Shown here one piece after another: positions 24,603 through 32,114 of a stretch of 64,000 nt of DNA; the stretch's first letter is position 1; each line of letters starts with the position of its first letter. The notes beneath the pieces are model-generated. The model was given only the letters and a program-made list of their open reading frames with translations. It made no database searches and was not told the origin of the DNA. The stretch comes from a virus. A program made the translations under genes and the position numbers. The stretch spans positions 1-64,000 of IMG/VR virus record IMGVR_UViG_3300046808_001241. One strand, 5' to 3'.

Positions 24603-25036
24603 GGGGGTGTACTGGTTTCGACACATAGTTGAACCTAAGAGTGCATGCAGAGGTTAATCGATGGCCTCTTTAAAAATCGATTAAAAACCTAAACGCAGAA
24701 GACAACACTTCTGACCTCTTAGCTGAGGCCGAATACATCTTCAACAATGCTGACGAGTTCCTCGCCGGCGTTGAAGAGTACGAACTCGCAGCCTAAGAGC
24801 CTAATAGAGGATCCTCTAAATCTATTTTGAAACGTAGAGGAAAAGATAACAGTGTAAGCTTGTAAAAAATTACCACTGAGAAATATATGATCTTCGCATA
24901 TATAGGCAGACACAAAAAGTTAGGCCGATGAGCCACGACAGCCTTTTGTCAATCAAATGTCAAATCCATCCAAGCATGTGAAGAGCTTTTAGCATAAATT
25001 ATTTGGACAGGGGTTCGAATCCCCTCACCTCCACCA
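24603..25036 (+). ncRNA. ssrA: tmRNA
   Basis: 434 nt. 5' GGGGGTGTACTGGTTTCGAC and 3' GGACAGGGGTTCGAATCCCC-T-CACCTCC-ACCA form the tRNA-Ala-like domain, with the G3.U70 pair needed for alanine charging. The resume codon is probably GCA at 24695; the tag frame runs 33 codons to TAA at 24794, beginning AEDNTSDLLAEAEY and ending EEYELAA. tmRNA rescues stalled ribosomes and marks the product for proteolysis. The tag is about three times the usual length. Confidence 0.93.
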
Positions 25037-29149: not shown

Positions 29150-29758
29150 ATGAACCGAACAATATTAATTGCGTGCATTGCAATATTGTTGCTTCCGTCC
29201 TGCACTGTATATACAGAGAAGCAATCAGAAGTTTTGTCACAATCAGCCTATTTAGCAGATGATTCGTTTGAGGCCGGTCGTTTTGATGTAACCGACTCTG
29301 CCTTAGATAATGTAATCCGGATCGTCAAACCTCCAAAACAAAGACTGCAAATTAAAGCAATCGAAACACCAACCTCTTTAACTTCTTCTTCTGAAGGTTC
29401 AACGCAAAAAAATACAAACACTGCTGCTAATCAAAAAATTGTAATAGTTCCTGAAAAATTCAAAAACCAACAAATAGTGGTCGTGAATTCTGAAGAGTTT
29501 CAACAGTTAATAAAAGACAAAAAAATACTCGAGCAATTACAGGGTGATCATAAAATTCTTAATAAATTAAAAGTAGATATTGAACAGGAGCTTGCAAAGC
29601 AAATAGCTTACAACAATAAAATGGTCGAGGACTTAAACAAACTACAAAAAGAATTGTTATCAAAAAAACTTCTTATCTTAAAATTGTACATAATTATAGC
29701 AATAATGGTATTGGTAATGGGGGGAGGAGTCTATCTTAGATTGAAAGGAATTTTATGA
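29150..29758 (+). CDS. predicted u-spanin
   Basis: 202 residues. N-terminal signal MNRTILIACIAILLLPSC gives a lipobox-type Cys18 for outer-membrane lipidation. A Ser/Thr/Gln linker and a coiled coil (about 115-175) follow, then a C-terminal transmembrane helix (YIIIAIMVLVMGGGVYL, about 181-197). This is the architecture of T1 gp11-type u-spanins, which join the inner and outer membranes and fuse them at lysis. It is longer than T1 gp11. First gene of the lysis cassette. Confidence 0.75.
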   Translation: MNRTILIACIAILLLPSCTVYTEKQSEVLSQSAYLADDSFEAGRFDVTDSALDNVIRIVKPPKQRLQIKAIETPTSLTSSSEGSTQKNTNTAANQKIVIVPEKFKNQQIVVVNSEEFQQLIKDKKILEQLQGDHKILNKLKVDIEQELAKQIAYNNKMVEDLNKLQKELLSKKLLILKLYIIIAIMVLVMGGGVYLRLKGIL

Positions 29759-29874
29759 AAAACATATTGCAACTTGTCTTAGAAAATATTAAAATGTTTT
29801 ATAAAAAACATCCTATCTTGGCTGTTTTTATATCCGGAATATTATTTGGTTTGTTTTTATCGTTTATTTTTTAG
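29755..29874 (+). CDS. 39-residue membrane protein
   Basis: MKNILQLVLENIKMFYKKHP followed by one strong transmembrane helix (AVFISGILFGLFLSFIF). ATGA overlap with the spanin gene. Possible pinholin or antiholin, by position only. Confidence 0.6.
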   Translation: MKNILQLVLENIKMFYKKHPILAVFISGILFGLFLSFIF

Positions 29875-29875
29875 T

Positions 29876-30349
29876 ATGTGGAGAGGAATAACAGATTTAA
29901 TAAAAGCTGCAGCATCAATGTTGCATAGCGGATCTGTGCCTCCAAACACCCCTGTAAGATATAAAGAAGATTTAAGTAAAGTAAATTTTTTAGCTTCTAA
30001 AAAATTTTATGTAGTATTCTGGTCGGTTGTCATACTAGCAATATTTTATGTTGCTAGTATTGTGGTATTGTTTTTAACAGCAAATGCTCCTTCCTTAACA
30101 GTTCCGTTTGTTTCAATTTTTACAGAAACTATTAAAATACTAGCTATTATAATTGCTAGTTATCTTGGTGTACAAACAGTATTGGATTACAAAATGCAGT
30201 CTAACACAAATATTGATTTGCAAGGTTCAAATTCTTTTACTAGTGAAGTTGTTGATGAAAACGTAGTTCAAAAATTTGCAGAGAAACATAAAACAGATCT
30301 TTCATACGCACCTTTAGAGTGGATTCAAGAAAGGAGCTTTGAAGTATGA
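29876..30349 (+). CDS. holin candidate
   Basis: 157 residues. A basic N-terminal third, two transmembrane helices (FYVVFWSVVILAIFYVASIV at about 44-63; a second about 82-108), and a soluble acidic C-terminus. It directly precedes the endolysin with ATGA overlap, the usual place for a holin. Confidence 0.6.
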   Translation: MWRGITDLIKAAASMLHSGSVPPNTPVRYKEDLSKVNFLASKKFYVVFWSVVILAIFYVASIVVLFLTANAPSLTVPFVSIFTETIKILAIIIASYLGVQTVLDYKMQSNTNIDLQGSNSFTSEVVDENVVQKFAEKHKTDLSYAPLEWIQERSFEV

Positions 30350-30822
30350 ATCTTTGGCCAAAGCAAAATTATTCATCCATGGTAGAATACTACGGTCTAG
30401 TAGGAGAGAATCAAACAACTCTCATTCTTCCATATACTTTAAAGTTGGCTTGGGATTCGTCCTCCGTAGTTAAAAGAATGACATGTCATTTAAAAGTTGC
30501 TGAATCGTTACACAGCATATTTGAAAATGTTTTAAAAACTTACGGTGAAAAAGAATTGCGAAAACTGAACTTAGATGTGTTTGGAGGCTGTTTAAACGTA
30601 AGAAAAATGAGAGGGAGTAAAAATACGTGGTCTATACATTCTTGGGGAGCGGCTGTAGATTTGGATCCGAATAACAATCAGCTAAAATGGAATAATAACA
30701 AAGCAACGTTTGCAAAAAGGGAATACGAACCTTTTTGGAAAATAATCGAATCAGAGGGCTGGGTTAGTTTAGGAAAACAAAGAAATTATGACTGGATGCA
30801 CTTTCAAGCAGCAACACTCTAA
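30346..30822 (+). CDS. endolysin, M15-family peptidase
   Basis: 158 residues. The motif SIHSWGAAVD (His98, Asp105) and the terminal WMHFQ (His152) are the zinc ligands of M15/VanY-type L-alanyl-D-glutamate or D-Ala-D-Ala peptidases. Cleaves peptidoglycan stem peptides. No signal peptide, so it needs a holin. Confidence 0.88.
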   Translation: MNLWPKQNYSSMVEYYGLVGENQTTLILPYTLKLAWDSSSVVKRMTCHLKVAESLHSIFENVLKTYGEKELRKLNLDVFGGCLNVRKMRGSKNTWSIHSWGAAVDLDPNNNQLKWNNNKATFAKREYEPFWKIIESEGWVSLGKQRNYDWMHFQAATL

Positions 30823-31729
30823 TCTTAAAAGTAAAAGACGGACAGAAGTTGGAGAAACGGAACGTCTTTTATTAAACATTACAAACAGACAAGCAAACTT
30901 AAAAGAACTGTCGTCGTATTTATCAGAATTAGAGAGCCAACTGGCTTTAATTTTTGCAGCATCTCCTGATATTATTGTGTTGTTGGACAAAACAGCCAAA
31001 ATTTTGAAAATCAGCGAGGCTGCTTATTCTGCTTTAGAATATAGAAAAGAAGAATTGGTAGGTAAGTGTCTTTGGGATTTTATTTCTTTGGACGATTTAG
31101 ATAAGACAAAAGAAACGTTTTTAAGTTTGCAACAAGGAACAGAAACGATTGAGACAAAAGCTTTGATAAATCGTTGGATTTCAAAAAGTGGCAAATTAGT
31201 AAAATTAGTTTGGAGATTTTCTTTGTTCAATTCAGAAAAAAACTATACTGTCGGAATTGCTTCTGATGTGTCTGTTTTTGGAGAAAACGAAAAGTACGAT
31301 CTCAAAACGCTTCAAAAAGCAGTAGACTTATCTGCAGATGGAGTAATTGTAACAGACTCTTTTAGTAAACACAATACAATAGTGTATGTGAACGAAGCGT
31401 TTTGCAATATGACTGGTTATACACAAGCGGAACTTGTTGGAAAAAATGCAAAATTTTTGCAAAGCGAAGAATGCAAGCATTCTAGAGCAATTAATACATT
31501 AAGAGAATGCATAAAAACAGGAAAAGGGTGCGACATACTTTTACAAAACATCAAAAAAAACGGAGAGATATTTTATAATAAATTGATGGTGTCTGCTGTT
31601 AAAGAAGGAGATGAGGTAATAAATCATATCTGGATATCTAAAGACGTGACAGATGAGATTGGGATCAAATATGAATGGTCTCCAAATACAGAAAGGGGGT
31701 TTTGGATTTTAAATGAGCAGAAACTCTGA
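30788..31729 (+). CDS. tandem PAS protein with LOV-like second domain
   Basis: 313 residues. Charged N-terminal coiled coil (about 20-55), PAS-1 (about 55-163), PAS-2 (about 178-290). PAS-2 has the LOV-like run NEAFCNMTGYTQAELVGKNA followed by KFLQ. In photoactive LOV domains the residue after GxN is the flavin-reactive Cys; here it is Ala221. No kinase, cyclase or DNA-binding output domain follows. The gene overlaps the endolysin end by 35 nt and is followed by a coiled-coil membrane protein, so it is embedded in the lysis cassette. Confidence 0.85.
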   Translation: MTGCTFKQQHSNLKSKRRTEVGETERLLLNITNRQANLKELSSYLSELESQLALIFAASPDIIVLLDKTAKILKISEAAYSALEYRKEELVGKCLWDFISLDDLDKTKETFLSLQQGTETIETKALINRWISKSGKLVKLVWRFSLFNSEKNYTVGIASDVSVFGENEKYDLKTLQKAVDLSADGVIVTDSFSKHNTIVYVNEAFCNMTGYTQAELVGKNAKFLQSEECKHSRAINTLRECIKTGKGCDILLQNIKKNGEIFYNKLMVSAVKEGDEVINHIWISKDVTDEIGIKYEWSPNTERGFWILNEQKL

Positions 31730-32114
31730 TGCCCTACAAAAAAACAATTACGAAGGAAATGGTTGGTCAAAATACCAAATCATGGTATTGCAGCAACTTG
31801 AGGATCATAATGCTGTTTTACAAAATTTAAATAAAGAACTAATCGAACTTAAGCAAAACATGGCTGTGTCTGAAACCGAGTTAAAAATGTGGAGAGCTCA
31901 GACCATGTTGTCCATTGAAAAGCTTACTGAAGAAGTTGACGAAATACTTTATGACGAAAGCGGACTAAGCTACAAAATTAGAGCTCTTGAGAGGAATAAC
32001 GAAGTCGACGAAAAAGTTAGTTTAAAAACAAAAGCCATTTGGGCTATGTTGGGAGCTATATTGACTTTTTTAGCAAGTTTTGGAGCTAAGGTAGTAGAAA
32101 TTTTTTTAAAATAG
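31713..32114 (+). CDS. coiled-coil protein with C-terminal membrane helix
   Basis: 133 residues. A long coiled coil (about 25-100) and one C-terminal transmembrane helix (KAIWAMLGAILTFLASFGAK). The layout recalls XhlA-type lysis accessories. It may tether a partner, plausibly the PAS protein, to the membrane. Confidence 0.6.
   Translation: MSRNSDALQKNNYEGNGWSKYQIMVLQQLEDHNAVLQNLNKELIELKQNMAVSETELKMWRAQTMLSIEKLTEEVDEILYDESGLSYKIRALERNNEVDEKVSLKTKAIWAMLGAILTFLASFGAKVVEIFLK

Follow-up and report, generated by a model that had tools for sequence, protein, structure and literature searches.

A tandem-PAS gene in the lysis operon of a deep T4-like phage clade

Phage lysis is usually taken to be timed by the accumulation of holin, by the energisation of the membrane and, for T4, by superinfection. 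A gene for a protein with two PAS domains, standing in series with lysis genes, raises the question of whether a phage might also set this moment through a sensor of its own, or whether such a gene is present for reasons unrelated to lysis. The gene lies in the window, by which we mean the whole stretch of DNA analysed here, which spans the opening 64 kb of an IMG/VR virus record of 217,182 bp. This stretch also carries a phage-encoded tmRNA (24603-25036; predicted 33-residue tag AEDNTSDLLAEAEYIFNNADEFLAGVEEYELAA), which adjoins a tRNA cluster. The DNA polymerase of the window phage shares 31-32% identity with its T4-like counterparts, cyanophages being among the best matches, and the phage is therefore placed in a deep T4-like lineage. 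Shine-Dalgarno (SD) sites are nearly absent from the window (11% of genes vs. 8% background), as they are from the Cellulophaga phages phi19:1 (2%) and phi18:3 (0%; background 6-8%); the corresponding value for L100, a phage contig discussed below, is 90%. Translation initiation in the Bacteroidota is known to be SD-poor, so a Bacteroidota host fits the window phage, and the host of its clade is probably a member of this phylum.

The lysis block and its membrane proteins

Six ORFs run in series on the + strand from 29150 to 32114, each junction being an overlap or a 1-nt gap. The features of the block are as follows.

29150..29758, + strand: u-spanin candidate, 202 aa; N-terminal lipobox (LLLPSC), coiled middle and C-terminal TM at 174-192 (hydropathy)
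29755..29874, + strand: single-TM protein, 39 aa, from direct reading; TM at 21-39
29876..30349, + strand: holin candidate, 157 aa; two hydrophobic segments, adjoins the endolysin
30346..30822, + strand: M15-family endolysin, 158 aa; phrog_17001 endolysin (1.4e-69), PF13539 (Peptidase_M15_4; 3.1e-8)
30788..31729, + strand: tandem-PAS protein, 313 aa; from Pfam, PDB sequence matches, a model and the family alignment
31334..31657, + strand: LOV-type PAS-2 domain within the tandem-PAS protein; from PDB sequence matches and Foldseek
31713..32114, + strand: XhlA-like protein of 133 aa, here cc133; GNGWSKYQ N-motif, coiled coil and C-terminal TM; from PHROG matches and relatives

The confirmed coordinates agree with the initial annotation, which had described the six genes as overlapping or contiguous: the junctions measure -4 nt (spanin/39-aa protein), +1 nt (39-aa protein/holin candidate), -4 nt (holin candidate/M15 endolysin), -35 nt (endolysin/PAS) and -17 nt (PAS/cc133). 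Its M15 endolysin is likewise borne out by the PHROG and Pfam matches listed above, and its spanin by a u-spanin topology, with lipobox LPSC and C-terminal TM. As a family search gave no match for the latter, the name u-spanin rests on this topology, a lipobox and a C-terminal TM in one protein; homologs at 36-45% identity occur in L007, L012, L083, L086, L087 and L097. No confident family match was obtained for the candidate holin, which over 20 relatives keep in front of their endolysin gene, and Pfam and PHROG searches found no family for the 39-aa protein. The T4 late promoter TATAAATA was rejected as a map of the operon, its occurrences being not above chance, and scans for sigma-70 promoters and terminators likewise gave results near chance level.

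The last gene of the block encodes a coiled coil with a C-terminal TM (109-127), the GNGWSKYQ motif and the coiled coil being N-terminal. A Pfam search of cc133 was without match, and its matches to XhlA-type PHROGs are weak (phrog_1193, 8.6e-5; phrog_937, 2.8e-4). In Bacillus, vesicle production, the holin-endolysin effect measured for PBSX, needed each of xhlA, xhlB and xlyA, in agreement with earlier lysis work (PMC5589764). Like XhlA of this XhlA-XhlB-XlyA system, cc133 is a small coiled-coil protein with a C-terminal TM, encoded beside holin and endolysin genes; it differs in its GNGWSKYQ motif and in having a PAS partner, and the better of the two profile matches remains a weak one.

The tandem-PAS protein and its relatives

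The window PAS protein consists of a helix (23-58), PAS-1 (~59-163), a LOV-type PAS-2 (~181-289) and a C-tail (290-305). Both PAS domains are recognised by Pfam (PF13426, 4.6e-26), which, in keeping with the initial annotation, returned no output domain; hydropathy gave no convincing TM or signal sequence. In the PDB, the sequences closest to that of PAS-2 belong to LOV photoreceptors (1.4e-18), foremost the short LOV protein 7a6p, and a Foldseek search with an AlphaFold model of modest confidence (pLDDT 67 overall, ~85 in PAS-2) found 7a6p among many PAS structures (33% identity, rmsd 3.4). That PAS-2 is LOV-like with Ala221 in place of the photoactive Cys, as had been proposed, is upheld by these matches and by the motif GKNAKFLQ, in which Ala221 occupies the position of the LOV adduct Cys and Lys222 that of the Arg. 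The active-site Gln of the last strand is Ser284. Flavin-contact residues are retained at Asn220, at the Gln of FLQ and at the Asn of both LLQN and FYN. With Cys, Arg and Gln all replaced, a canonical photoreceptor is ruled out for the window PAS-2, which could nonetheless be a flavoprotein of the redox type, though all three are missing together.

There is precedent for the loss of the Gln and for that of the Cys. Some ~350 natural LOVs lacking the Gln have been described and are likely photoreceptors, and signalling without this residue has been shown (PMC9098866). Natural Cys-less LOV-like proteins also exist, with Ala among the replacements, and one of them, BAT-LOV, responds to chemical or photoreduction of its flavin (PMC4682037). 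The window domain has the same Ala for Cys and Ser for Gln as occur in such proteins (PMC4682037; PMC9098866), but the simultaneous loss of Cys, Arg and Gln sets it apart, and its flavin binding is only putative. Short bacterial LOV proteins, such as PpSB2-LOV of Pseudomonas putida (7a6p), offer a second comparison, since they too have a LOV-type PAS core without an output domain. In contrast to these, the window protein is phage-encoded, carries a helix and PAS-1 in front of its LOV-type domain and belongs to a lysis operon; moreover, it has lost the adduct Cys, and no member of the clade keeps the active-site Gln.

Relatives of the PAS gene were found in five other phages of the deep T4-like clade, at 46-52% identity. 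From the 177 relatives recovered in an endolysin scan, 80 loci were retained, two of which (L003 and L028) have the PAS gene; L083, L086 and L087 were added by scans with cc133 and with the PAS alignment. The gene order endolysin-PAS-cc133 is the same in the window and all five relatives. The endolysin of L083, L086 and L087, however, is of the Phage_lysozyme type (PF00959, 8.3e-6 for L083) and non-homologous to M15, so that a comparison of L083:4441-5064 with window 30346-30822 exposes a swap of lysozyme and M15 endolysins between otherwise syntenic lysis loci of one clade. Because the lysozyme type stands at the same place in the same order, the position of the PAS gene has outlasted the exchange of its neighbor. 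Across the clade, endolysin/PAS junctions range from -35 to +29 nt and PAS/cc133 junctions from -17 to +43 nt, the latter being no more than +2 nt in the five full-length cases. On this evidence the PAS gene truly belongs to the lysis operon of this clade and is conserved there.

The architecture of the PAS protein is less constant than its place. Helix, PAS-1, PAS-2 and C-tail are all present in the window, L003, L083, L086 and L087; L028 has just the helix and PAS-1. In L097, the place of the PAS gene is taken by a 62-aa gene (L097:1895-2083) with likeness to the helix only (HMM E=1.5e-4 among 10,441 ORFs), which overlaps both the endolysin and cc133 by 4 nt. The adduct Cys is kept in L003 (GKNCRFLQ) and L083 (GNNCRMLQ), and the motif is gone from L086 and L087. 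PAS-2 of L003 carries a published set of nine LOV residues in full (GKNCRFLQ, LLENKRKDG, FYN; PMC9098866), only the active-site Gln missing, and that of L083 retains the Asn, Cys, Arg and Gln of the LOV motif. The active-site Gln is Ser in L003 and Val in L083. Since the trees give no strong support to a pairing of L003 with L083, the simplest view is that the ancestor of the full-length members had the Cys and that it has been lost at least twice; with two relatives holding it, Ala221 of the window is most simply a secondary loss. A rooted ancestry of the PAS architecture was abandoned, tree support being too weak. The loss of the motif in L086 and L087 and the absence of PAS-2 from L028 mean that PAS-2 is not constrained for photochemistry.

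The strongest conservation lies outside the PAS domains. Among the five full-length proteins, mean pairwise identity is 70.6% in the helix (23-58) and 76.2% in the C-tail (290-305), as against 55% in PAS-1 and 47% in PAS-2; in cc133, the N-motif is 73% identical vs. 37% for the remainder. Such parts are those that an interface would be expected to use. Given this conservation, the tight junctions and the helix-only gene of L097, the helix and the cc133 N-motif may well form an interface.

Phage PAS and LOV proteins beyond the clade

No member of the family was found in the 84,980 bacterial and archaeal genomes scanned, and a second scan of bacterial genomes, with the L003 LOV domain as query, returned ordinary bacterial LOV/PAS proteins only (≤42%), with no hint of a donor or host. 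Nor was a member found in 50,697 phage records, which gave only weak partial PAS matches and LOV domains in ‘Listeria phage’ records (3-9 kb, unannotated) that are probably bacterial DNA contamination. Viral contigs were further scanned for the LOV motif E....GxNCRFLQ, and one other clear phage case emerged. In L107:3158-4027 and L108:6053-6922, on contigs of 155 and 212 kb that are identical across 5.8 kb and belong to a large phage unrelated to the window phage, a complete canonical LOV domain (GKNCRFLQ, FWN, GIQ) is joined in one protein to a coiled coil with a C-terminal TM, making this protein a candidate membrane-anchored phage photoreceptor. An unrelated 48-kb phage (L102:5521-6587) has, among structural genes, a tandem-PAS gene with a LOV-like PAS-2 that overlaps by 4 nt a gene for an 86-aa coiled-coil/TM protein with a GW motif; a homology of the latter to cc133 was rejected, the motif being suggestive only (hhalign probability 9%, E 0.0036). 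L100:5923-6726, on a 245-kb contig, encodes a LOV-like PAS (GRNANFLR, with Ala at the Cys position), a second PAS and a coiled coil, and lies among late/structural genes. The L107/L108 fusion and the L102 gene pair make a coiled-coil membrane anchor seem the recurring partner of phage LOV/PAS proteins. Other candidates were discarded as chance matches (L104/L105, local matches; L118) or as bacterial-type LOV proteins, mostly histidine kinases (L109-L117, L119).

Homologs lying consistently outside lysis loci had been named in the initial annotation as evidence against a role in lysis. Within the clade, five of five lie between the endolysin and cc133; in the DNA read around the distant L100, L102 and L107/L108 genes there is no recognised lysis gene beside the PAS/LOV gene. 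Lysis linkage of phage LOV/PAS proteins is thus evident only in the present clade.

A fold search against viral models added uncharacterised PAS-fold-like proteins (phrog_10199/31932) of cultured Cellulophaga phages, all identified on fold evidence and encoded in the vicinity of endolysin and holin-like genes.

L146:39102-39620: PAS-fold-like gene of phi18:3, two genes before a GH108 endolysin
L149:3911-4546: PAS-fold-like gene of phiSM, overlapping an M15 endolysin
L147:5703-6425: PAS-fold-like gene of phi19:1, after a three-TM, weakly holin-like gene
L148:3935-4537: PAS-fold-like gene of Ingeline_1

Sequence tests of these proteins as PAS were negative, and their assignment comes from structure comparison alone. 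Should they truly be PAS proteins, a sensor acting on lysis in the present clade would be one case of a recurrent pattern, in which Bacteroidota phages carry PAS sensors among their lysis genes.

A possible sensor for lysis timing

The explanation that we favor, with a little less than an even chance of being right, is that the PAS protein is a soluble sensor of flavin (light/redox) or of another ligand, docked on a membrane coiled-coil partner and setting the timing of lysis. The sensor would have no enzymatic output of its own, and its N-terminal helix, perhaps together with the C-tail, would dock on the N-terminal coiled coil of cc133, which in turn, being membrane-anchored and XhlA-like, would work with holin and endolysin. 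PAS-2 would bind flavin in at least some members, most likely in L003; the light or redox state, or another ligand, at PAS-2 would then change the complex, and host conditions would thereby advance or delay lysis. Since the adduct Cys is lost, the window protein would be left with a response to redox or another ligand, or with a role as scaffold only. We infer docking, flavin binding and an effect on lysis from the comparisons above, and the putative link of PAS to cc133 is strengthened by their tight coupling, by the conservation that helical parts of both share and by the LOV-coiled coil-TM fusion found elsewhere. A narrower version, in which a phage LOV photoreceptor or redox sensor times lysis via the membrane coiled coil, with photochemistry intact in proteins of the L003/L083 type and redox-only function in the window phage, we consider unlikely. 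Against the favored explanation, synteny in phages is not function, and related phages manage without the domain, among them L097, with no PAS domain, and ~20 endolysin relatives with no PAS gene beside the endolysin. The lack of constraint on the photochemistry of PAS-2, the weak XhlA likeness of cc133, the lack of recognised lysis genes beside the distant PAS/LOV genes and the modest confidence of the model also count against it.

In the proposed role, the protein would resemble the T4 antiholins RI and RIII of lysis inhibition, regulators that set holin timing from a signal. RI, however, is a secreted periplasmic protein, whereas the PAS protein has no convincing signal sequence or TM and a different fold, and it lacks the signal-anchor route to the periplasm expected of an RI-type antiholin.

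The same facts can be read in other ways. PAS and cc133 might form a signalling module at the membrane that is directed at the host, for instance by titrating host PAS kinases or altering host redox or light responses, and merely co-transcribed with the lysis genes. This would accord with the PAS and coiled-coil/TM pair of L102 and the fusion of L107/L108, both away from recognised lysis genes, and with the ordinary lysis loci of PAS-less phages, the closest such endolysin relatives having normal spanin-holin-endolysin blocks. Yet within the clade the gene always lies inside the lysis block, despite deep divergence and endolysin replacement, and co-expression with lysis genes would come late, when host reprogramming would be of little use; we regard a host-directed module as somewhat unlikely, though a serious contender.

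Quite improbable, in our estimation, is a purely structural adaptor, in which PAS-1 and PAS-2 would serve as dimerisation or scaffold domains of a cc133 complex, with no sensing and the LOV motif a relic. The degenerate LOV residues of the window (C to A, R to K, Q to S), L086 and L087 would suit such a protein, as would the dispensability of PAS-2 in L028 and of both PAS domains in L097 and the fact that helix and C-tail are its best-conserved parts. Nevertheless, the LOV residues retained by L003 and L083, which are not well-supported sisters, would not be expected of an unconstrained relic. We give practically no credence to a spurious or decaying ORF, which the 35-nt overlap with the endolysin and the lack of a convincing ribosome-binding site might suggest: poor ribosome-binding sites are common to genes of the window phage in general, and an open frame conserved at ~50% identity in five other phages refutes a chance ORF.

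Both PAS/LOV proteins and lysis operons are familiar, but in the open-licence literature searched we found no account of phage LOV/PAS proteins in lysis loci; there is a modest chance that their combination represents something categorically new. Because the position of the PAS gene is conserved, environmental control of phage lysis becomes testable, and as the relatives run in a natural progression from the helix alone, through helix and PAS-1, to the addition of LOV with or without the Cys, few constructs would suffice. If wired into the lysis operon, a cytoplasmic PAS/LOV sensor would let the environment or host metabolism act directly on a phage, and these proteins would be among the first candidates for phage-encoded photoreceptors with an obvious testable context.
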